A stretch of DNA of 43,096 bases from an uncultured Gammaproteobacteria bacterium (GTDB lineage: Bacteria > Pseudomonadota > Gammaproteobacteria > SZUA-229), in NCBI GenBank assembly GCA_913065105.1, contig CAJXZZ010000016.1, positions 1 to 43,096 on the forward strand, given 5' to 3'. Shown here one piece after another: positions 27,769 to 38,532 of this stretch; the stretch's first letter is position 1, and every line of letters begins with the position of its first letter. Below the pieces are notes generated by a model. That model was not told where the DNA came from, searched no databases, and saw only the letters and a list, made by a program, of their open reading frames with translations. A program made the translations under genes and the position numbers.

Positions 27769-28581
27769 ATGCAAAGCAAAGCACTTAAACCTGAAGAATA
27801 TTTCATCAAAGACGAGCCTTATTATCAAACCGTCGGTGATGAGATCGCTATTTTTGAAGCAGCCTACAGACAGTCATTACCGATATTACTCAAAGGCCCA
27901 ACCGGTTGCGGTAAAACCCGTTTCATGGAGCACATGGCATGGCGACTCAAACGGCCGTTGATTACCGTCTCCTGCCACGATGATTTAACCGCCTCTGATC
28001 TAGTCGGACGTTTTTTGATCTCCGGCGGTGAAACCGTCTGGGTCGATGGTCCGCTGGCACGCTCTGTGCGTCACGGCGCTATCTGTTACCTCGATGAAAT
28101 CGTCGAAGCACGCAAAGACACCACCGTGGTCATCCACCCATTAGCCGATGATCGTCGCGTACTACCGATGGAAAAGGTCGGCGAAATACTCGAAGCAACG
28201 CCCGAATTTTGTTTAGCCATCTCATATAACCCGGGTTATCAAAGCGTAATGAAGGACTTGAAACAAAGTACCCGTCAACGTTTTGTAGCCCTCGAATTTG
28301 ATTACCCTGACGCCGCACTCGAAGCTGAAATCATCATCAAAGAGACCGGCATCGATACAGCCACAGCCAACCTGTTAGTCAAATTTGCACACATGACACG
28401 CGACCTTAAAGGCAGTGGCTTAGATGAAGGCGCTTCAACACGTTTGCTCGTACATGCCGCAAAACTTATTCACGAAGGTATCTCCCCTGTCGTCGCCTGC
28501 AAAACAGCAATCTCTCAGGCCATTACTGATGATGCTGACATGATGGTTGCCATGCACGAACTATCCTCTTCTTTATTTTAA
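27769..28581 (+). CDS. cbbQ: AAA+ ATPase of the Rubisco-activase pair, CbbQ type
   Basis: A 270-residue MoxR-class AAA+ ATPase. Walker A is GPTGCGKT (43-50) and Walker B is AICYLDE (104-110), with the family strings HMAWRLKRPLITVSCHDDL, ASDLVGRFL, VVIHPLADDRRVLP and SYNPGYQSVMKDLKQSTRQR. The N-terminus (KPEEYFIKDEPYYQ) and the C-terminal helix resemble CbbQ more than NorQ/NirQ, but these subfamilies are close. CbbQ hexamers with CbbO remove inhibitory sugar phosphates from Rubisco. It is followed 27 nt later by the CbbO-like gene. No Rubisco gene is in the window, so assignment rests on sequence style and the partner. Confidence 0.8.
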   Translation: MQSKALKPEEYFIKDEPYYQTVGDEIAIFEAAYRQSLPILLKGPTGCGKTRFMEHMAWRLKRPLITVSCHDDLTASDLVGRFLISGGETVWVDGPLARSVRHGAICYLDEIVEARKDTTVVIHPLADDRRVLPMEKVGEILEATPEFCLAISYNPGYQSVMKDLKQSTRQRFVALEFDYPDAALEAEIIIKETGIDTATANLLVKFAHMTRDLKGSGLDEGASTRLLVHAAKLIHEGISPVVACKTAISQAITDDADMMVAMHELSSSLF

Positions 28582-28608
28582 AACCATCAAAAATAAAATC
28601 CCCAGGAT

Positions 28609-30753
28609 ATGCCTCGTCCCACGCTTACCTTTGAAGAAATCATAGAACGACTAGATGTTTACTTCGACGCCGAATTTACCTTCATCAAAAGCGAAGACGC
28701 CGCTGAACTCATCATTAAGCAGCCTCGAAGTATCCAGGATTTTATTTTAAATTTATGTAAACGCATCTCTGCGACCAATGAAGAGTTAGCATTCCAATTC
28801 ACCATGAATTCCATTAGAGCACTGGAAGCCATGGATCAACACATGGTCGAAGCATGGGCCATGACGGCAACAGATAATTACGACCGTAAAGGATTAACCC
28901 CTGCCATGATCGTTATCCGCGATCTAGATAATTACGTTCACACTGCACACGTCAATGCTTGCGGTGCAGTATTGGACGAAGAGATCTCAATATTGCTGCC
29001 GTTTGTTCAAGGGCTTTCCGGAAGAAAATTAAAAATAGCTGAAGCTGAAGACAATCACGCATACACAGATACAGAAACAATTTTTCTACCGGCCATAACC
29101 GCTCTACTCGAAGAGTCTAAAGATAATTTTTTAATCTACAAAGCGACCGTCGCCTTTCACTGGGCGCAGATTCAATTTGGTACATTTCGCCTACCGTTTG
29201 ATGAGGTACTAGATTGCGATGACCCTGTAACTCAACTAAAAAAAATAACCGCACTGGAAACCATCAGACTGGAAGCATGCATCAAGCGTGAACTACCCGG
29301 CCTGTATCGTGACATGCAGATATTGAAACAGAAAACCACTGATAACAATGAACAAACACATTCAGACAACTGGCAAAATGTAGTAGACAAACTTTCTGCT
29401 ATCGACGCATGCGTGAACGATACCTTGCATTGTCTGGAATTGATCAGTGATAAACAGTTGCCGGACTCTTGCTGTTATCAAGGGGTATTAAAGCTTGATC
29501 AAGTCACCGACATCATGCAAAAACGCATCGAAAAAGAAAAAGCTTATTTTCGCATTGCCCTAAGTGAGCTCGCCAAAGAGTCACTGAAAAAAAACAAAGA
29601 GACCACAGAAGATACCGACGATAACGAAACCACAACATTCAACATAAAAACCCGGAATGACAAGCAACAGATCAGCAATAGCCTGGTCGAACTGGAGCTG
29701 GAAGGTGAACTGGTTGCAATACCTGATCACGTTAAAGAGTTAATGACTTCGATCATTGTTGATTTTGGTGAAATCCCACCTGAGCATCTTCACGCGGCAG
29801 GCCCCGGCGAATATGATTTAAAAAAATATGAAGATGAGATGCTTAACCCAGATGATGTCTGGCAAGGCACTTATCATGAAGAAGGCGCTGAGTTATATAA
29901 TGAATGGAATTTCAAACGACAGCATTATCATAAAAACTGGTGCGTACTGCGTGAACTTGAAATAGAACCTAAATATGATGACTTCGTAGAAGACACACTA
30001 GATAAACACAAAGGTTTATTGAAAAGCCTTCGTCATACATTTGAAATTTTGCGTGGTGAAGACAAATTACTTAAAAGGCAGGTATACGGTGACGACATCG
30101 ATATAGATGCCCTGGTCGAAGCCTATGCTGATGTAAAAAGCGGTATGGAAATGACCGATCGCCTGTTCACAAAAATGCACAAGGAAGAAAGAAACGTCGC
30201 CGTGATGTTTATGGTCGACATGAGTGGCTCGACCAAAGGCTGGATAAATGATGCAGAACGTGAATCATTAATTTTACTTTGTGAAGTAATACAGATACTG
30301 GGTGACCGTTTCGCTATCTATGGTTTCTCCGGCGTGACCCGCACACGCTGCGAGTTATACAAAATCAAAGCCTTTGATGAAGAATACAACGATGAAATTA
30401 AAGGCCGCATCTCTAATATACAGCCAAAAGATTACACCCGCATGGGCGTTTTCATTCGTCACATGACACGAATTTTTAACGGCGTCGACGCATCAACAAA
30501 ATTGCTCATCACCATCTCCGATGGTAAACCGGATGATTACGACACCTATCGAGGCGAATACGGTGTGGAAGATACACGGCAGGCGTTATATGAAGCCCAT
30601 CGCGATGGTATTCATCCATACTGCATAACCATCGATGAAGAAGCGCGTGATTATTTGCCACATATGTACGGCGCAGCCAATTATTCGGTAATTGATGATG
30701 TGACACAATTACCATTGAAAGTATCTGACATCTATAGAAAACTAACGACATAA
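28609..30753 (+). CDS. cbbO: von Willebrand factor A protein of the Rubisco-activase pair, CbbO type
   Basis: A 714-residue cytoplasmic protein. A long helical N-terminal region (1-330) and an acidic linker (about 330-345) precede a C-terminal vWA domain (about 525-712). The MIDAS motif DMSGS places Asp/Ser/Ser at 537, 539 and 541, with TRMG and SDGKPDD providing the remaining metal contacts. CbbO binds Rubisco through the vWA MIDAS and rides on the CbbQ hexamer. NorD proteins share the architecture but are usually somewhat shorter (family knowledge). It lies between cbbQ (27 nt) and sbcB (22 nt), so one transcript is likely. Confidence 0.78.
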   Translation: MPRPTLTFEEIIERLDVYFDAEFTFIKSEDAAELIIKQPRSIQDFILNLCKRISATNEELAFQFTMNSIRALEAMDQHMVEAWAMTATDNYDRKGLTPAMIVIRDLDNYVHTAHVNACGAVLDEEISILLPFVQGLSGRKLKIAEAEDNHAYTDTETIFLPAITALLEESKDNFLIYKATVAFHWAQIQFGTFRLPFDEVLDCDDPVTQLKKITALETIRLEACIKRELPGLYRDMQILKQKTTDNNEQTHSDNWQNVVDKLSAIDACVNDTLHCLELISDKQLPDSCCYQGVLKLDQVTDIMQKRIEKEKAYFRIALSELAKESLKKNKETTEDTDDNETTTFNIKTRNDKQQISNSLVELELEGELVAIPDHVKELMTSIIVDFGEIPPEHLHAAGPGEYDLKKYEDEMLNPDDVWQGTYHEEGAELYNEWNFKRQHYHKNWCVLRELEIEPKYDDFVEDTLDKHKGLLKSLRHTFEILRGEDKLLKRQVYGDDIDIDALVEAYADVKSGMEMTDRLFTKMHKEERNVAVMFMVDMSGSTKGWINDAERESLILLCEVIQILGDRFAIYGFSGVTRTRCELYKIKAFDEEYNDEIKGRISNIQPKDYTRMGVFIRHMTRIFNGVDASTKLLITISDGKPDDYDTYRGEYGVEDTRQALYEAHRDGIHPYCITIDEEARDYLPHMYGAANYSVIDDVTQLPLKVSDIYRKLTT

Positions 30754-30775: not shown

Positions 30776-32206
30776 ATGACAAACACAATCTACTGGTACG
30801 ACTACGAAACCTTCGGCATAAATCCAAAATACGATCGTCTGTCACAGTTTGCCGGAATTCGCACCGATGAAGAGCTGAACATCATCAGTGACCCACTGAC
30901 TTTATACTGCAAACCAGCGGATGATTGCCTGCCAGACCCCTATGCCTGCATGATCACCGGTATCACTCCGCAAAAAGCGCTGGCTGATGGTATCGATGAA
31001 GTGGAATTTATTTCTGCCATTCACCATGAATTCTCTAAAGCCGGAACCTGTGTTGCCGGTTTCAATAACATCCGTTTCGATGATGAATTTACCCGTAATG
31101 CACTGTACCGTAATTTTTTCAATGCTTATGCTCATGAGTGGCAACACGGAAATTCTCGCTGGGACATTATCGATACGGTTCGTCTAACCCGGGCTTTACG
31201 CCCAGAAGGCATCAACTGGCCGGAACAGGACGGCCGCCCCAGTATTCGCCTCGAGCTACTCACCACCGCCAATAACATCAAACATGAAGCGGCGCATGAT
31301 GCTATGTCAGACGTTTACGCAACGATTGCAGTCGCTAAACTCATCAAAGAGAAACAACCTCGGCTTTATCACTATATATATAGTATGCGTAAAAAAACCG
31401 AGGTCAGTCAGCAGATTAACCTGCGCACGCGCGAAGCCATACTGCATGTATCGTCTCGTTATTCAGCAGATCGTGGCGCCATCGCTATGGTGATGCCTAT
31501 CTGCCAGCACCCGGTTAATAAAAATGGCTTTATCGTTTATGACCTTCAGGTTCACCCCGAAGAATTTTTTGCCGCTGATGCCGAAGAAATGGCTGCACGC
31601 TTATACACGCCGGCTGCAGATCTGCCGGAAGGCGTATCACGTATCCCTTTAAAACAGATACATATTAATAAGTGCCCTGTCATCGTGCCATTAAAAACTA
31701 TGGACAGCAGCGCAGCTGAAAGACTCAACATAGATACCGACCTCTGTATGCAGCACCGTGAGCTCATCCTGCAACATATCGATGAGTTTGCTGCAAAAAC
31801 TGCTGCAATTTTTCAGCAAAGTGATTTCCCCGAAATCAGCGACCCCGATGGCCAGTTGTATTCTGGTGGTTTTTTCAACCGTGATGATAGCCAGCGGATG
31901 GATACCATACGAGAAACGCCGGTAGATAAACTCGCGGCCCTGCACTTTAACTTTGATGATGCTCGCCTGGAAGAAATGCTATTTCGTTTCCGCGCCAGAA
32001 ACTACCCAGAAACACTGAATACAGAAGAAAATAAACAATGGGATAAGTATCGTCATGATAAATTCAGCAATCCGGGCACTTCACACCGCACCATGAACCA
32101 GTTTTTAGCAGAAATTGAGGCTATTCAACAGGCACCGGACACCGTTGGCAGCCAGTTGGTCGTGCTTGAAGATCTGCTCGAGTACGCAAATTCAATAAAA
32201 ATATAA
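30776..32206 (+). CDS. sbcB: Exodeoxyribonuclease I
   Basis: A 476-residue DnaQ-fold 3'-5' single-strand exonuclease. Exo I motif is YDYETFG (catalytic D9/E11), then GFNNIRFDDEFTRNALYRNF (Exo II) and HEAAHDAMSDVYATIAVAKL (Exo III). Later signatures of the SH3-like and C-terminal helical domains include NKCPVIVPL and FRARNYPETL. It acts in mismatch repair and recombination. The start follows cbbO by 22 nt. Grouping with cbbQO looks incidental. No terminator hairpin is seen in the 177 nt before the next gene. Confidence 0.95.
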   Translation: MTNTIYWYDYETFGINPKYDRLSQFAGIRTDEELNIISDPLTLYCKPADDCLPDPYACMITGITPQKALADGIDEVEFISAIHHEFSKAGTCVAGFNNIRFDDEFTRNALYRNFFNAYAHEWQHGNSRWDIIDTVRLTRALRPEGINWPEQDGRPSIRLELLTTANNIKHEAAHDAMSDVYATIAVAKLIKEKQPRLYHYIYSMRKKTEVSQQINLRTREAILHVSSRYSADRGAIAMVMPICQHPVNKNGFIVYDLQVHPEEFFAADAEEMAARLYTPAADLPEGVSRIPLKQIHINKCPVIVPLKTMDSSAAERLNIDTDLCMQHRELILQHIDEFAAKTAAIFQQSDFPEISDPDGQLYSGGFFNRDDSQRMDTIRETPVDKLAALHFNFDDARLEEMLFRFRARNYPETLNTEENKQWDKYRHDKFSNPGTSHRTMNQFLAEIEAIQQAPDTVGSQLVVLEDLLEYANSIKI

Positions 32207-32278: not shown

Positions 32279-32307
32279 TTGCTTATATAAGTATTTTATA
32301 ATATACT
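32279..32307 (+). promoter_or_regulatory. Promoter of A1
   Basis: TTGCTT (32279-32284), a 17-nt AT-rich spacer and TATACT (32302-32307), about 77 nt before the A1 ATG. The region resembles the A2 promoter (shared TTATAT, TAATAT strings), as expected if the gene and its control region were duplicated together. Confidence 0.65.
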
Positions 32308-32315
32308 TTTCTTCA

Positions 32316-32383
32316 TTGGTCGTAGAGACCAAGAGCGCATGAATTTTTTAACTTTACTATCTAAACCTTTGAGGGTTTCATAA
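32316..32383 (+). promoter_or_regulatory. A1 leader: 5'-UTR hairpin plus 14-codon upstream ORF
   Basis: The hairpin TTGGTC-GTAGA-GACCAA (32316-32332) is followed 6 nt later by ATG 32339. This opens a 14-codon ORF (MNFLTLLSKPLRVS) whose TAA (32381-32383) directly abuts the A1 ATG. GAGGG inside the ORF is the A1 Shine-Dalgarno site. GAGCGCATGAA and TTTTTAAC are shared with the A2 leader. Confidence 0.5.
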
Positions 32384-32995
32384 ATGAAAACATTACAAGC
32401 TATTGCTGCTGCAACTATCTTAGCTACATCAACTGTTGTTTCTGCTGATTGGGATATGCCTTTCTTCGGCGATAACAACAACTCTAACTACAACGGCAAC
32501 AACAACATGAACAACAACGGTTCTGGTAACGGTGCTGCTGACGCTGACGGCGAATTCGACAGTTCTTTCTCTTTCGGTATGAAAGCATCTGGTAAAGGCA
32601 ATGGCCGTGGTAACGGTAATGGCAACTACGATGGCAGCAACAACTATAACGGTTCTAACGGCTACAATGGTTCTAACGGTTCGTACAACGGATCTAACGG
32701 TTCTTACAATGGTAACAACAACATGAACAACAGCAGCAACGGTAACGGTGCTGGCGATGTTGATGGTTCTGGTGATGTTGACGGTTCTTTCTCTTTCGGT
32801 ATGAAAGCATCTGGTAAAGGTAAAGGACGCGGTAACGGTAACAGCAACTGGGATAACAACGGTTACTACAATGGTTCTAACGGTTACTACAACGGTTATG
32901 CTCCACAAGGTTATGCTCCAGCTCCTCAGGCTGCACCAGCTCCTGCTGTAGCTCCTGCTCCTGCTGCTGCCGAAGTTAAAACTGAAGCTAAATAA
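32384..32995 (+). CDS. A1: exported Asn/Gly-rich repeat protein, sulfur-globule-protein-like
   Basis: A 203-residue protein. The signal peptide is 1-21 (MKTLQAIAAATILATSTVVS, cut after SA). The mature part starts DWDMPFF, then is built of Asn/Gly/Ser/Tyr repeats (NGSNG, YNGSNG). A motif SFSFGMKASGKG followed by a basic GRGNGN occurs twice (about 61-79 and 135-153), each preceded by acidic DADGEFD/DVDGSGD. The tail is Pro/Ala-rich (APAPAVAPAPA) and ends in a charged EVKTEAK. No cysteine. Composition, secretion and the DW-type mature start resemble sulfur-globule envelope proteins of sulfur oxidisers; that is inference. Codon use is strongly biased (AAC, GGT, TCT, GCT), suggesting very high expression. 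It is nearly identical to A2. Confidence 0.72.
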   Translation: MKTLQAIAAATILATSTVVSADWDMPFFGDNNNSNYNGNNNMNNNGSGNGAADADGEFDSSFSFGMKASGKGNGRGNGNGNYDGSNNYNGSNGYNGSNGSYNGSNGSYNGNNNMNNSSNGNGAGDVDGSGDVDGSFSFGMKASGKGKGRGNGNSNWDNNGYYNGSNGYYNGYAPQGYAPAPQAAPAPAVAPAPAAAEVKTEAK

Positions 32996-33021
32996 GCTGA
33001 AGTTAAAAGCATAATTGCTTG

Positions 33022-33062
33022 AAAAAAGCCCGACATCTGGTATCCAGAGGCCGGGCTTTTTT
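33022..33062 (+). terminator. Terminator between A1 and B1
   Basis: AAAAAAGCCCG (33022-33032) pairs with CGGGCTTTTTT (33052-33062), with an inner CTGG/CCAG pairing in the loop and a run of T's. It lies 26 nt after the A1 stop and 41 nt before the B1 start. With no separate promoter visible for B1, it probably lets a fraction of transcripts through. Confidence 0.85.
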
Positions 33063-33103
33063 TACTACAAACATTAAAAACCTATCCCAGGCAGAAAATA
33101 ATC

Positions 33104-33820
33104 ATGACTACTAAAAAAAAATCAGATCAAACTAAAGCCACAACTAAAGCCCCAGCAGTTAACGACAACAAAGCAGTATTTGGCCCTTTGGGTAAATACG
33201 CAGTTGTAGCTGTCATCATGGTAAGCATTATCGTGACAACAGCAATTATGCTAGATAAACAATTAAATACTGTTGATGAAAAAATTGCCGCTATCGAAAC
33301 TGAAGTGACAGAAATACATACTATCGATGCAATCACTGCAGAGACCGCAACTAGTAATGAAACAGTGGAAATAGTTGCAAGCACATCTGAGATCAATGCA
33401 ACAAAAGAAATAACTAGTGCAGAAGCAGCACCTGCTCCCGTTGCCATAGAAGCCGCACCTGCTGCAGACCTGAAGACTGAGCAAGCTATTACTATTGCAA
33501 CAGTTGAAACTGCAACGCCTGCTCAGACTAACCAGAAACAACCAGCGATGGATAATCAGGATCGTATCGAAGCACACAAACTTGAGCAAAAACAACGTAT
33601 GGCTGAAATGTTTGCTCGAATTAGATCACTTGAATCACAGCAGCTAGAACAATATAAAACTAACCAGGATGGACAGATAACTCGTTTACGTGATCATATT
33701 ACTTCGCAACAGCAGATGATTGACAAGCTTGCTTTACGTAACAAAGAATTATTTGAAATGCGTGCTGCTAATGTACAAAGAAATCAGACTAACCGCGAAC
33801 AGGTGCTTAACCGCATTTAA
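33104..33820 (+). CDS. B1: single-pass membrane protein with C-terminal coiled coil
   Basis: A 238-residue protein I do not recognise. It has a Lys/Thr-rich cytoplasmic start (1-30), one membrane helix (about 32-50, YAVVAVIMVSIIVTTAIML) and a long Thr/Glu/Ala/Ile-rich low-complexity linker (about 51-150). The C-terminal helical stretch is rich in Gln, Arg, Met and Glu with heptad-like spacing (about 152-237: KLEQKQRMAEMFARIRSLE, then QITRLRDHITSQQQMIDKLA). The expected topology puts the linker and coil in the periplasm. Its architecture matches B2 at 35927-36817. It lies between two A genes and may be a membrane tether or scaffold for the structures the A proteins form. Confidence 0.7.
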   Translation: MTTKKKSDQTKATTKAPAVNDNKAVFGPLGKYAVVAVIMVSIIVTTAIMLDKQLNTVDEKIAAIETEVTEIHTIDAITAETATSNETVEIVASTSEINATKEITSAEAAPAPVAIEAAPAADLKTEQAITIATVETATPAQTNQKQPAMDNQDRIEAHKLEQKQRMAEMFARIRSLESQQLEQYKTNQDGQITRLRDHITSQQQMIDKLALRNKELFEMRAANVQRNQTNREQVLNRI

Positions 33821-33914
33821 TACCACAGATTTTAGCGGCTATCGCAAATAGTCTGCAGTCTGTTTCAACCCTGTTTTACCGCTATAGCTAAAACATCAAC
33901 GAAACAAACTGAAC

Positions 33915-33954
33915 AAAAAAGAGGCTGGTACAGTACGTACCAGCCTCTTTTTTT
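33915..33954 (+). terminator. Terminator downstream of B1
   Basis: A perfect 11-bp stem, GAGGCTGGTAC (33921-33931) with GTACCAGCCTC (33937-33947), with a 5-nt loop, A's on the left and seven T's on the right. The rest of the 439-nt B1-A2 gap holds no gene; its right end is the A2 promoter and leader. Confidence 0.92.
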
Positions 33955-34132
33955 GTGCCATTTGACCCATAACATGACAAAAATTACAGGGTAGAAACAG
34001 CACTTATCACTACCTAAAAAGCTATACACATGAAGACTATTTGCTTTAATAAAGTATTTTAACTGACTGTAAAATAAAGATAAATGTAAAACCATCTCGT
34101 CTCGAAGTCACTTTAACATTAGTAATTCACTA

Positions 34133-34162
34133 TTGACTTATATTAAACAGTTCTAATATAAT
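34133..34162 (+). promoter_or_regulatory. Promoter of A2
   Basis: TTGACT (34133-34138), an 18-nt spacer and perfect TATAAT (34157-34162). The spacer end and -10 (TTCTAATATAAT) are identical to those of the B3 promoter at 36944-36972. Confidence 0.78.
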
Positions 34163-34171
34163 AATACTCAA

Positions 34172-34244
34172 CGACTCCAACGAATAAAACAAACAGTTCT
34201 GACGAGTCGAGCGCATGAACTTTTTAACAAGCTGTACTAAATGA
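34172..34244 (+). promoter_or_regulatory. A2 leader: 5'-UTR inverted repeat plus 9-codon upstream ORF
   Basis: CGACTC (34172-34177) can pair with GAGTCG (34204-34209). Five nt later ATG 34215 opens a 9-codon ORF (MNFLTSCTK, TGA at 34242-34244). It shares its first five codons with the A1 leader ORF and then diverges. The A2 Shine-Dalgarno site TGAGGA follows the ORF. Confidence 0.45.
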
Positions 34245-34259
34245 AATGAGGATAAAAAA

Positions 34260-34877
34260 ATGAAAACTTTACAAATTATTGCTGCTGCAACTATCTTAGC
34301 TACATCAACTGCTGTTTCTGCTGATTGGGATATGCCTTTCTTTGGCGACAACAACAACTCTAACTACAATGGCAACAATGACTGGAACAACAATGGTTCT
34401 GGTAACGGTGCTGCTGATGCAGACGGCGAGTTCGACGGTTCTTTCTCTTTCGGTATGAAAGCATCTGGTAAAGGCAATGGTCGTGGTAACGGTAACGGCA
34501 ACTACGATGGCAACAACTACTACAATGGTAACAACGGTTACAATGGTTCTAACGGTTCTTACAACGGATCTAACGGTTCTTACAATGGTAACAACAACAT
34601 GAACAACAGCAGCAACGGTAACGGTGCTGGCGATGTTGATGGTTCTGGTGATGTTGACGGTTCTTTCTCTTTCGGTATGAAAGCATCTGGTAAAGGTAAA
34701 GGACGCGGTAACGGTAACAGCAATTGGGATAACAACGGTTACTACAATGGTTCTAACGGTTACTACAATGGTTACAACGGTTATGCTCCACAAGGTTACG
34801 CTCCAGCGCCTCAGGCTGCACCAGCTCCTGCTGTAGCTCCTGCTCCAGCTGCCGAAGCTAAAACTGAAGCTAAATAA
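34260..34877 (+). CDS. A2: exported Asn/Gly-rich repeat protein, paralogue of A1
   Basis: A 205-residue protein with the same plan as A1: signal peptide 1-21, DWDMPFF at the mature start, two SFSFGMKASGKG modules, Tyr/Asn/Gly repeats and a Pro/Ala-rich tail ending in EAK. Compared with A1 it has small substitutions in the first half and a short NGY insertion before the tail. The stretch coding for the second module is almost identical at DNA level, including synonymous sites, pointing to recent duplication or gene conversion. Codon bias is as strong as in A1. It has its own promoter and terminator, so it is monocistronic. Function is inferred as a structural, sulfur-globule-like envelope protein. 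Confidence 0.72.
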   Translation: MKTLQIIAAATILATSTAVSADWDMPFFGDNNNSNYNGNNDWNNNGSGNGAADADGEFDGSFSFGMKASGKGNGRGNGNGNYDGNNYYNGNNGYNGSNGSYNGSNGSYNGNNNMNNSSNGNGAGDVDGSGDVDGSFSFGMKASGKGKGRGNGNSNWDNNGYYNGSNGYYNGYNGYAPQGYAPAPQAAPAPAVAPAPAAEAKTEAK

Positions 34878-34899
34878 GCTTTCGTTAAAAGCTACATAG

Positions 34900-34933
34900 A
34901 AGCCGTGTCATGAATAATGACACGGCTTTTTTA
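34900..34933 (+). terminator. A2 terminator
   Basis: AGCCGTGTCA (34901-34910) pairs with TGACACGGCT (34918-34927), with a 7-nt loop, followed by six T's. It lies 23 nt after the A2 stop. Confidence 0.92.
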
Positions 34934-34935
34934 AT

Positions 34936-35127
34936 GCCCACAGGAAAGCAAAGATTGCGGCAGACAGTCTCTCTGTATTTCCACCTTCCTGGGATCAACG
35001 TAAGAGACATGGGCGTAGATGATAGAGCAACGTATACCGCCTTGGATGGTGGGTAGCAGGTAATGCAGGAGCAATTACCAAGAAGCTATTGTCGAGCAAC
35101 CGTTATCGAGGAGCAGAAGCTTTGCCA
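34936..35127 (+). repeat. Dispersed GGA-hairpin element, copy 1
   Basis: Non-coding stretch filling most of the A2-A3 gap. Positions 34936-34985 align with the minus strand of 39952-39903 (40 of 50 identical by my count). Positions 35059-35127 (hairpin GGTAAT-GCAGGAGCA-ATTACC, later GAAGCTTTGCC) align with the other half of the same distant locus, in swapped order. Stem bases differ in a compensatory way while the loop is unchanged. No ORF of note is present. Confidence 0.65.
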
Positions 35128-35227
35128 ATTTTATTACAATACAAGATCATATAAATTCACAACAGAAAAGTTCCGGTTCTCGAATAGACTCAAAATAGTA
35201 TCAAACCGCTGTATACCACCTCTGAAA

Positions 35228-35256
35228 TATTGATTATATTGTCATTTTCTTATAAT
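35228..35256 (+). promoter_or_regulatory. Candidate promoter of A3
   Basis: A perfect TATAAT (35251-35256) with a weak -35 TATTGA (35228-35233) at 17 nt, or TTGATT (35230-35235) at 15 nt. It is placed just before the A3 leader hairpin. Confidence 0.55.
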
Positions 35257-35261
35257 TTTAA

Positions 35262-35288
35262 TGTGGTAAGTTCGTAGCAAATACCACA
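35262..35288 (+). promoter_or_regulatory. A3 leader hairpin with adjacent upstream ATG
   Basis: TGTGGTA (35262-35268) pairs with TACCACA (35282-35288). An in-frame ATG follows at 35290, 36 nt before the chosen A3 start. Hairpin followed at once by an upstream ATG is the same layout seen before A1 and A2. Confidence 0.5.
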
Positions 35289-35325
35289 CATGAAAAACTC
35301 TGCAAACAAAACTCAGGAGTTCAAA

Positions 35326-35796
35326 ATGAAAGCATTACAGATACTCGTTGTTGCTGCACTATTTATGACGTCAAGCAGTGCAATAGCATGGTGGAAACCA
35401 TTTGATAATAACAATGGCCATAATAACAACGGCTGGAACAATAACAATTGGGACAATAATAATTGGAACAATCGTTGGAACGATAATTCTTTTGGCAACA
35501 TGATGAACGACGTGATGGGAGATATGTCTGGCGACATGGACGTAGAGATCAAGTTCAAGATAAGAGGTAAAGGCAGAGGCAACGGCGGGGCTTATGGCAA
35601 TGCTGATAATTACTGGAACAATAACAACGGATACTATAATTACAATGGTTATAACCGCGGTTATGCGCCTTATGGTAATCAACCATACTATAGAAACGCA
35701 CCCGCTTACGGTGGTTCACCCTATTATAACAGTGCTCCTTATGATCAAACACCAGCACAAACTGCGCCTTCACAACAACAACCTACTAATAAATAA
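35326..35796 (+). CDS. A3: exported Asn/Tyr/Trp-rich protein, divergent relative of A1/A2
   Basis: A 156-residue protein. I start it at ATG 35326 because AGGAG (35315-35319) precedes it and it opens MKALQILVVAALF, parallel to MKTLQ in A1/A2. The upstream in-frame ATG 35290 would put a polar dodecamer before the signal peptide. Signal cleavage is likely after AIA-21. The mature start is WWKPF, followed by NNNW/NNGW repeats. A single module, MDVEIKFKIRGKGRGNGG (71-88), corresponds to the SFSFGMKASGKG motif of A1/A2. The Tyr/Pro-rich end has GYAPYGNQPYYR. No cysteine. The Trp/Asn/Gly/Tyr composition is the most sulfur-globule-protein-like of the three. Codon bias is weaker than in A1/A2. Confidence 0.7.
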   Translation: MKALQILVVAALFMTSSSAIAWWKPFDNNNGHNNNGWNNNNWDNNNWNNRWNDNSFGNMMNDVMGDMSGDMDVEIKFKIRGKGRGNGGAYGNADNYWNNNNGYYNYNGYNRGYAPYGNQPYYRNAPAYGGSPYYNSAPYDQTPAQTAPSQQQPTNK

Positions 35797-35926
35797 GTCC
35801 CATTGGCTTCAAAAGGCAACCCATATGGTTCAGCTTTTTTTACAGCGGCATTATTAATGTGAATATAGACTTTTAAATAAATATTTATCAAAAACGAATA
35901 CACACAAAGTAATTTGGGGAAAACTA

Positions 35927-36817
35927 ATGAGTGATACAAAAAACAAAACCGAAAATAACACAGAGTCGAAAACAGACGAAGTTGCACCATATATGAAACA
36001 AGACAAGCAGGACAAAGCACCTGCTGAATCATCAAAAAGCAATATGGTCATTCCACTGGTATTACTGCTAGTGTCAGCAATTGTAATTGTTGCAACCTTT
36101 TACGAAGACGAATATAACGATCTAGTCGCCGAAGCTAGTTCAGCAACCGAAACACAGACTGAAACATCAGCATCTGAAAAACCCGACAACAACACTGAAG
36201 CTGTTGCACAAGCTACTGAAAATAACAACGCTACAGCAGTTGAAATTCAAGCTGTTGCCGTTAATGCTGAGTCACCTGCTAATACTGAAATTCAAGCAGT
36301 ATCAACTGCTAAACAGGATACGATGATGCCACCTGCTGACCGCGTCACCGACACACAAACACGCGCGGCCAACCACCACGCGCGTATGCAAACAGCATAT
36401 GCCCCATATCAACGTACTCCTTATGCCGGTTACCCGGTAAATCAGCAGTCTTATGAGCAGGCGCGCAAAGAAGCGATAGCACGCGCACAGGAGCAGGCGA
36501 AAAAGCATGATGCAATAATGCAGCAACGCCGCCAGGCACATGAGAAAGAAATGCAGGCAAGACGCCAGCAATATGAAGCGGCGATGAAAGCACAGCAGGA
36601 AAAAAGAGCAAAAATTGCTGAGACCCAAAAAGCTGTATTTCAACGTGTAGAGCAAAATCGTATGGAAAATAATCAGAAAATGAAGGAAATGCATGATGAG
36701 ATTTCTAAAATGCATAATGAGATTCACCAAATTATGCGTGATTCACAACCTCAATACAGAAATAACAGTGCTCCACAAATACAACAACCAGCAACTGAGC
36801 AGTTACAAAGTATATAA
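35927..36817 (+). CDS. B2: single-pass membrane protein with long Gln/Arg/Met-rich helix
   Basis: A 296-residue protein of unknown family. It has a polar cytoplasmic start (1-38), one membrane helix (about 40-58, MVIPLVLLLVSAIVIVATF) and an acidic Thr/Glu/Ala/Asn linker (about 60-145). A Tyr/Pro patch follows (AYAPYQRTPYAGYPVNQQSY, about 157-176), then a continuous charged helix (about 178-270) with repeated RRQ/QQ/KAQQEKR patterns typical of coiled coils. The AYAPY/YAGYP patch echoes the YAPYG/YAPQGYAP strings in A1-A3, which could mean a shared interaction surface. GGGGA lies before the ATG. It lies 130 nt after A3 and ends at a strong terminator. Confidence 0.7.
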   Translation: MSDTKNKTENNTESKTDEVAPYMKQDKQDKAPAESSKSNMVIPLVLLLVSAIVIVATFYEDEYNDLVAEASSATETQTETSASEKPDNNTEAVAQATENNNATAVEIQAVAVNAESPANTEIQAVSTAKQDTMMPPADRVTDTQTRAANHHARMQTAYAPYQRTPYAGYPVNQQSYEQARKEAIARAQEQAKKHDAIMQQRRQAHEKEMQARRQQYEAAMKAQQEKRAKIAETQKAVFQRVEQNRMENNQKMKEMHDEISKMHNEIHQIMRDSQPQYRNNSAPQIQQPATEQLQSI

Positions 36818-36838
36818 CATCAAAATTTCGAGTTACTC

Positions 36839-36867
36839 AAAAAAGGGCGCATTAAGCGCCCTTTTTT
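36839..36867 (+). terminator. B2 terminator
   Basis: GGGCGC-ATTAA-GCGCCC stem-loop flanked by six A's (36839-36844) and six T's (36862-36867), 21 nt after the B2 stop. Confidence 0.93.
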
Positions 36868-36943
36868 GTTTCACTAAAAGCCCAGCGATACTCACTTAAA
36901 CAAGTTATGCCCCTTGACCACCTGCAATAATGGCAGGTATATC

Positions 36944-36972
36944 TTTACTATATTAATCATTTCTAATATAAT
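36944..36972 (+). promoter_or_regulatory. Promoter of B3
   Basis: TTTACT (36944-36949), a 17-nt spacer and TATAAT (36967-36972). The spacer contains ATATTAA and ends TTCTAA, matching the A2 promoter spacer base for base over the final 6 nt plus the -10. This implies common control of A2 and B3. Confidence 0.72.
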
Positions 36973-37041
36973 TACATTGTGATGTCACTACGCGACCTGT
37001 GACGCATATAAGTAGACTCGTGATGGAACAAGGTAAATGGA

Positions 37042-37536
37042 ATGACAAAATATAGATTGCAAATTCAATCGATCTCTCTGGTACTTGCGCTGTTTTTTTC
37101 GAATATAGCATTGGCTGCCCAATTCTCAAATGAGAATAAAGACTGCGGCGTTAACAATGTTGAGCCTGCTAACAGTGACATTAACTTTACTGTAAGTACC
37201 GAAGCAAACACATCGATTAGCCATCAACAGCAGTTTATTCGTCATGTACAAACCTTCCAGCAGATGGAAACACGTCACCATAAATTGCTAGAAGCTCAAC
37301 GAGAAGCTTACAAGCAGTACATACGAAGTAGAAATCAGCAGTATTCTAGAAATAACGGCCTATCAACCGATGCACAGGCGAGGCGTGAAGAATACATCAA
37401 ACATATGAATCAACGACAAGAACTCATGAATAAAATGATGAATGAGCGTCGTGAAGCAGCACAAGAAAGAAAACAAACAATGCTGCAAAAAATGCACCAA
37501 ACAGGTACTACGTCTGCTGCGGCAGGTGAAACTTAA
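37042..37536 (+). CDS. B3: exported helical protein rich in Gln, Arg, Met
   Basis: A 164-residue protein with no family I recognise. The signal peptide is 1-25 (SLVLALFFSNIALA, cut before AQF). There is a short polar segment with one cysteine (C34), then two charged helical stretches (about 60-105 and 110-153) rich in Gln, Arg, Met, Glu and His, e.g. RQELMNKMMNERREAAQERK. It resembles the C-terminal helices of B1 and B2 but lacks the membrane anchor, so it should be a free periplasmic partner. AAGG before the ATG supports the start. It has its own promoter, similar to that of A2, and closes the A/B cluster. Confidence 0.68.
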   Translation: MTKYRLQIQSISLVLALFFSNIALAAQFSNENKDCGVNNVEPANSDINFTVSTEANTSISHQQQFIRHVQTFQQMETRHHKLLEAQREAYKQYIRSRNQQYSRNNGLSTDAQARREEYIKHMNQRQELMNKMMNERREAAQERKQTMLQKMHQTGTTSAAAGET

Positions 37537-37833: not shown

Positions 37834-38532
37834 CTACGTTCTCTGCCCAAAAATTGAAGTCCCTACTCTGACCAAAGTTGCCCCTTCTTCAATAGCCAGA
37901 CAATAATCACCACTCATTCCCATTGAAAGCTGATCAAAGTTCTGCAGGCCAAACTCCGCTTTACACCTTTCCTGTAGTATTCTTAATTCTGCAAAAGCAT
38001 TACGTGTTTGTTGTTCATCCCCTTTTACGCCTATTGTCATCAGGCCTCGCCATTGTAAACAAGGCAGTTCCAGTTTTAAAAGTTGCTGCAGAAAAGGATT
38101 TACCTCATCAGGCATCAGACCTGATTTTGTCGCTTCGCCACTCACGTTAACCTGTATCAGACAGTTGAGCACAGAGTTTTTTGTATGATGCATCATTGCT
38201 GAGGATAATTTCTCTGCGAGTTTGAGACTATCGACTGAATGAATCCATTGAAAATAACCGGGTAACTTACCTGCTTTTTTTGACTGTAAGTGACCGATAA
38301 AATGCCATTCCACGTCCTGCTGTAGATGAGGTATCTTGGTCATCGCGTCCTGTATGGTATTTTCGCCAAAATGTTTTTGCCCTAACGAAGCAACGGCTTT
38401 AACTTCATCGAGCGAACGCGTTTTTGAAACCGCAATAAGATGGATATCATTCACATCACGGCCGGATTTTTCCGCGCATTGCTGAATGTTTTGCTGAACG
38501 ATCGATAAATTATCAGCGAGGCTATTTGACAC
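37834..38532 (-). CDS. yggS: Pyridoxal-phosphate homeostasis protein (YggS/PLPBP)
   Basis: A 232-residue alanine-racemase-fold PLP-binding protein without catalytic activity. The PLP lysine is K37 in LIAVSKTRS. Further family strings are FGENTIQDAMTKI, WHFIGHLQSKKAG, LIQVNVSGEATKSG, RGLMTIG and LSMGMSGDYCLAIEEGATLVRVGTSIFG (given here by its pieces LSMGMSGDY and VRVGTSIFG). It controls PLP and amino-acid balance. It lies 5 nt downstream of alaA, so the two PLP-related genes are one operon, an unusual partner compared with its common pilT/proC neighbours. Confidence 0.95.
   Translation of the reverse strand: MSNSLADNLSIVQQNIQQCAEKSGRDVNDIHLIAVSKTRSLDEVKAVASLGQKHFGENTIQDAMTKIPHLQQDVEWHFIGHLQSKKAGKLPGYFQWIHSVDSLKLAEKLSSAMMHHTKNSVLNCLIQVNVSGEATKSGLMPDEVNPFLQQLLKLELPCLQWRGLMTIGVKGDEQQTRNAFAELRILQERCKAEFGLQNFDQLSMGMSGDYCLAIEEGATLVRVGTSIFGQRT

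Follow-up and report, generated by a model that had tools for sequence, protein, structure and literature searches.

Described sulfur-globule proteins and the present locus

In the papers that we found, the only described proteins of sulfur globules are the soluble coat proteins SgpA–SgpD. In Allochromatium vinosum, the sgp genes lie far apart as judged by locus tag (Alvin_1905, 0358, 1325 and 2515), and sgpD forms its own transcription unit (PMC10386293). SgpD is exported, has a Trp at the start of the mature protein and is predicted to be helical with regularly spaced prolines; it is bound to globules in vivo and is not essential (PMC10386293). In the colourless sulfur bacterium Beggiatoa leptomitoformis, thiosulfate induces the sulfur-globule protein (SGP) ALG67575.1, which both globules and lithotrophy apparently require; disruption of an SGP gene there is accompanied by the loss of globules and of growth as a lithotroph. 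The passages on this protein describe no membrane-anchored partner (PMC7356093). Our own search for a membrane-anchored globule partner found none in the literature covered, which left subscription journals mostly outside. Here we describe a six-gene cluster in a stretch of 43,096 nucleotides (the window) from an uncultured Gammaproteobacteria bacterium (GCA_913065105.1, contig CAJXZZ010000016.1; GTDB SZUA-229). The cluster is best explained as coding for the sulfur-globule envelope of a Thiotrichaceae-type sulfur oxidiser, with genes for coat proteins (A) beside genes for membrane-anchored coil proteins (B).

The six genes occupy positions 32384–37536 on the + strand, in the order A1, B1, A2, A3, B2, B3:

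A1: 32384..32995, + strand, exported Asn/Gly-rich sulfur-globule protein, 203 amino acids, PF17228
B1: 33104..33820, + strand, membrane-anchored coiled-coil protein, 238 amino acids, no Pfam or NCBIfam family
A2: 34260..34877, + strand, duplicate of A1 (96% identical), 205 amino acids, PF17228
A3: 35326..35796, + strand, third SGP-type protein, 156 amino acids from the likely start (the open reading frame opens at 35290)
B2: 35927..36817, + strand, second membrane-anchored coiled-coil protein, 296 amino acids, no Pfam or NCBIfam family
B3: 37042..37536, + strand, exported coil protein, 164 amino acids, related to SgpD-like SGP::coil fusions in their coil part

The original prediction, made from the window's letters, had placed six open reading frames here, and all of its coordinates were confirmed except the start of A3. 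Gene order and strand are kept in many genomes; the conservation of frames and order rules out chance open reading frames as the origin of the six genes.

A1, A2 and probably A3 are members of the sulphur globule protein family

A1 and A2 match PF17228 (sulphur globule protein) with E values of 9.8e-10 (39.6 bits) and 3e-9 (38.1 bits), respectively, well over the curated cut-off of 26.7 bits. As a whole protein, A3 falls slightly short of the cut-off at 23.9 bits; in a frame search it passes at 28.0 bits, and it aligns along its full length with clear SGPs. A1 and A2 are new members of a known family, and A3 is probably another. Signal peptides and composition were judged by reading the sequence. 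The signal peptide of A1 reads MKTLQAIAAATILATSTVVSA, followed by a mature start of DW. For A3, the internal ATG at 35326 is most likely the start rather than the opening of the frame, because it lies just 3' of AGGAG, gives a normal signal peptide (MKALQILVVAALFMTSSSAIA, followed by WW) and is where the homologues start.

Each A protein carries a Sec signal peptide and a mature part rich in Gly, Asn, aromatic residues and Pro, and is encoded in a putative sulfur oxidiser, as is the case for SgpA, SgpB and SgpC of A. vinosum. Cysteine is absent from all three, as had been proposed, and from B1 and B2; B3 has one. Unlike the scattered sgp genes of A. vinosum, the three A genes here share one cluster with genes for membrane partners, and a sequence module occurs twice in A1 and twice in A2. 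The original prediction saw this module as common to A1–A3 and as strand-forming. Its presence in A1 and A2 stands, whereas A3 carries a related but different version (VEIKFKIRGKGRGNG), and the strand does not hold up: AlphaFold predicts A3 to be mostly disordered (mean pLDDT 48), with no strand. A1 and A2, 96% identical, are by their sequences a recent duplication. As they flank B1 (32384–34877), the setting is prone to recombination or gene conversion.

The host's own genome contains dsrA (5e-190), with a dsrB-type neighbour, and soxB (5e-209). Judging from gene content alone, the organism appears to oxidise reduced sulfur. Together with the PF17228 matches, this gives good support to the earlier proposal that the A proteins are sulfur-globule envelope proteins. 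Further SGP-like genes lie on two other contigs of the genome, and a lone SGP gene (L043:8401-8859, contig C8) was noted ∼35 kb from dsrA on the same contig; a scan of the genome contigs with A3 as query gave no match. A third SGP-like type, with a mature start of WDMPWD and a Pro/Arg-rich tail, was seen at L109:9310-9987, L048:8794-9489 and L039:2743-3393, and genes of this type stand 3' of B1 in one genus.

B1 and B2 are predicted single-pass membrane proteins with a long helix

Neither B1 nor B2 belongs to a Pfam or NCBIfam family, all matches being below the curated cut-offs, and a profile search of the PDB with B1 returned only coil and transmembrane matches (E 0.05–1). Alignments covered B1 with 13 homologues and B2 with ∼14 (20–56% identity), and an AlphaFold model of B1 was built from 14 sequences. 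B1 has a disordered N-terminal tail, a transmembrane span at ∼32–50, an acidic linker and a C-terminal helix at 145–237. In the model, residues 1–22 are disordered, 23–82 form a helix that includes the span, 83–144 are disordered, and the C-terminal helix extends over 93 residues, or ∼14 nm, at pLDDT 92–98. The (near-)invariant positions of B1 include D21, a PLxKYA motif at the membrane entry, IIxTTA within the span and the C-terminal –RI; all 16 complete B1 proteins end in I, and 15 of the 16 in RI. Many B2 proteins end in I or M, and the free C-terminus may be recognised. The acidic linker is near-universal among B members and a basic coil end is usual; the cytoplasmic tails of the window's B1 and B2 are short, with net charges of +5 and −1, respectively. 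The model of B1 and the alignments agree with the original prediction of single-pass proteins with an acidic linker and a long helix.

An N-terminal membrane helix, a periplasmic spacer and a long helix make up the plan of TolA/TonB-type proteins. B1 and B2 share this general plan of single-span proteins, but they have no sequence match to them, lack a C-terminal globular domain and are linked to SGP genes rather than to exbBD or tolQR. To the extent of our checks, neither the B family nor its linkage to SGP genes has been described before.

B1 and B2 match one another over a short stretch of coil (hhalign probability 95%, 35 columns), and the B2 profile matches some B1 proteins weakly. The two may be old paralogues, although coil composition alone could explain part of the likeness. 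The YAPY strings of B2 resemble the APYGYAP repeats of the A proteins, and they had been taken as a hint of a shared A–B2 interface; they vary from protein to protein in the B2 alignment, several members lack them, and they are too poorly conserved to bear that idea out. A regular-expression signature for the B coil, which found 14 of 46 B proteins and none of 963 background open reading frames, was dropped as too incomplete. Orphan B2-like paralogues stand away from SGP genes at L036:9783-10565 (the host's own genome, contig C69), L038:4800-5564 and L042:9731-10558, with long Lys/Ala/Pro-rich cytoplasmic tails that resemble DNA-binding tails.

B1 is confined to one family in the genomes surveyed, and B genes are linked to SGP genes

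B1 was found in 17 of 96 relatives, all within the window's own family, and B2 homologues occur in 16 further relatives. Across the class, matches to B1 were found in 3 of 369 genomes (the host's own, one family member and one coil-only match) and across the phylum in 1 of 398, the host's own; in these two sets B1 is convincingly present in no other family. The coil-only match, in genome G192 (E 5.6e-6), was taken as coil similarity. The named B1 records are uncultivated metagenome-assembled genomes, mostly labelled Gammaproteobacteria and including one Thiotrichaceae and one Thiotrichales bacterium. All 17 B1 genomes carry dsrA (13/17), soxB (16/17) or both. A wide occurrence of A/B clusters in organisms that do not oxidise sulfur, which would have spoken against the original prediction, was thus not observed.

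The linkage between B and SGP genes is close. A PF17228 match lies within ∼1 kb of B1 in 17 of 17 B1 genomes, and A genes are present at all 13 named B1 loci. In the gene maps, 38 of 44 B genes directly follow an A gene that is read from the same strand; four of the six remaining are orphan B2-like paralogues. We also compared SGP loci without ASCERTAINMENT by B, fetching them by PF17228 or SGP similarity alone and scoring each open reading frame for the B plan (a single membrane span close to the N terminus, the rest polar and poor in aliphatic residues, a tail that is charged and helix-like, and no more than one Cys). Within the window's family, the plan was present in 8 of 31 frames no more than 1.2 kb from an SGP gene and in 0 of 207 farther away (p 3.5e-8, indicative only, as the thresholds were set after B1 and B2 were known and changed once, and loci of the same genus are not fully independent). 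The B-plan proteins of L151 and L154 have no detectable homology to B1 or B2, which suggests that the architecture is kept beyond sequence recognition. Outside the family, no real B genes were seen near SGP loci; the single near B-type hit there, L140:8126-9277, proved on inspection to be a Sel1-repeat-like protein.

B3 resembles the coil half of SgpD-like proteins

B3 starts with a hydrophobic segment, and the remainder is rich in Gln, Arg, Glu, Lys and Met, as expected of an exported, SGP-linked protein of helix or coil. A gene of this type is the last of the cluster in many genomes. The B3 profile also matches A::coil proteins, in L091, L109/L088, L150, L158 and L160, in which an SGP part is fused to a C-terminal coil. 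Other genera of the window's family have a short A–B–A::coil module (L150, L158, L160, L161, L163 and L164) with A::coil as its last protein. In genomes G018 and G053 the long cluster closes with an SGP::coil fusion, and in the window's genus it closes with B3, which has no SGP part. B3 therefore looks like the coil half of an SGP::coil protein, and its place is probably among the SgpD-like coil proteins, not among the B proteins of the membrane. The three-plus-three alternating cluster of the original prediction, closed by an exported helix-only protein of the B set, is accordingly a local form: B3 is indeed an exported coil protein and the last gene, but the wider module is A–B–A::coil and B3 groups elsewhere.

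Set beside SgpD (Alvin_2515) by description, B3 and the related SGP::coil proteins are likewise exported, predicted helical and repetitive. The proteins of L109, L048 and L047 have, as published for SgpD, ∼45 helix-like residues followed by regularly spaced prolines, and their mature part begins with Trp or has one close to its start; L109:11776-12681 and L048:11287-12372 fit the published SgpD description, a likeness that we do not extend to membership. Several related fusions start with W or WW. B3 of the window differs: its mature start reads AQFSN or QFSN, with no Trp, and it lacks the SGP part. SgpD has been reported as nearly confined to Chromatiaceae, with its gene beside those for an exporter and a regulator and not beside B genes. 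In many other families there are SGP::coil proteins whose genes have no B gene beside them, and SgpD-like proteins with an SGP domain and a C-terminal coil (L048:11287-12372, L118, L119, L120, L123, L124, L126, L146 and others) were seen in many gammaproteobacterial families, beyond the published near-restriction. These occurrences point to a wider spread of SgpD-like SGP::coil proteins than has been published.

B1 and B2 as candidate tethers of the globule

On balance, we think it probable that the A proteins form the globule coat, that B3 is SgpD-like and that B1 and B2 act at the inner membrane as tethers or spacers of the globule. A1–A3 would leave the cytoplasm through Sec and form the protein coat around sulfur globules in periplasmic pockets, a role that their family makes likely in this organism. 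B3, from its homology to SGP::coil fusions, would be an SgpD-like soluble coil protein at the globule surface. B1 and B2 would remain in the inner membrane with a short tail in the cytoplasm, and their flexible acidic linker of ∼60–120 residues would reach into the periplasm and present the long helix (93 residues, ∼14 nm in B1) to the coat or to B3. Placed in this way, they would hold the coated globule to the membrane of its invagination or keep it at a distance from that membrane. The predicted length of the B1 helix and the published thickness of the globule coat, 2–14 nm (PMC10386293), are of the same order, which is only a consistency. The anchor or spacer of the original prediction therefore fits the predicted anatomy and the gene linkage, while the role itself stays putative. 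More tentatively, B1 and B2 could be the first recognised globule-to-membrane tethers, lineage-specific and acting through hetero-coiled-coils with SgpD-like surface proteins. The B family is a concrete, testable candidate for a link between a storage inclusion and the membrane, in one family of sulfur oxidisers.

Several observations weigh against this reading. The B coil is compositionally simple, and only a few positions carry the weak B2 matches beyond the genus. In four B1 genomes (G002, G004, G029 and G037) there is no dsrA match, although all four have soxB. B genes are missing from many SGP bearers, with none seen outside the family and some genera within it lacking them, so that B is not required for globules as such.

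Long charged periplasmic helices are a usual form of chaperones, and B1 and B2 could instead be membrane-bound periplasmic chaperones that pass sticky, disordered A proteins from the Sec channel to the growing globule. The position of B genes directly 3' of A genes (38/44) would suit this role, as would the predicted disorder of A3, since such proteins would need shielding. We nevertheless consider it unlikely. SGP bearers beyond the family do without B, including A. vinosum according to its published gene neighbourhood (PMC10386293), and a linker of 60–120 residues with two differing B copies per cluster suggests reach or spacing, not a holdase. We prefer a tether on two grounds: a long flexible linker with a rigid helix is suited to reach and spacing, and SGPs elsewhere function in the absence of B.

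Asn/Gly-rich disordered proteins also occur in sheaths and matrices. It is conceivable, if improbable, that the A proteins form another extracytoplasmic matrix (a sheath, a holdfast or an extracellular sulfur-binding layer) that B anchors across the periplasm: the host is uncultivated and known here from genes alone, and some sulfur oxidisers store sulfur outside the cell (PMC10386293). Against this stand the PF17228 match over the cut-off, the confinement of the A/B cluster to genomes with sox and/or dsr, and the neighbourhood of the cluster, in which we recognised no gene for outer-membrane secretion. Least probable is that B proteins connect the globule's pocket in the periplasm with the cytoplasm or nucleoid, positioning or segregating globules at division. 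The long Lys/Ala/Pro cytoplasmic tails on some B2 and orphan paralogues (L034, L036, L038, L042 and L163), reminiscent of PhaF/histone-H1-type DNA-binding tails, might speak for this, but the tails are not conserved and those of the window's B1 and B2 are short (+5 and −1).

Terminators and flanking genes

Four terminator-like elements lie within the cluster:

33028..33063, + strand, intrinsic terminator (hairpin followed by T7) separating A1 from B1, from sequence and scan
33915..33953, strand not assigned, terminator hairpin 3' of B1, from sequence and scan
34901..34932, + strand, terminator 3' of A2, read from the sequence
36845..36867, + strand, terminator 3' of B2, read from the sequence

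No terminator was seen in the interval between A3 and B2. The one between A1 and B1 was judged strong, so more A than B transcript is expected; with promoter-like sites 5' of A2 and B3, it would leave the coat in excess over the anchors.

Upstream of the cluster is an exonuclease I gene (30776–32206, PF08411) and downstream a convergent alanine-racemase-fold gene (37834–38532). Farther upstream, positions 27769–30753 on the + strand encode a CbbQ/NorQ-type AAA ATPase (PF08406), which also matches GvpN far under the cut-off, followed by a 714-residue protein with a weak VWA match. In L109–L112, similarly sized open reading frames likewise lie upstream of exonuclease I and the cluster.

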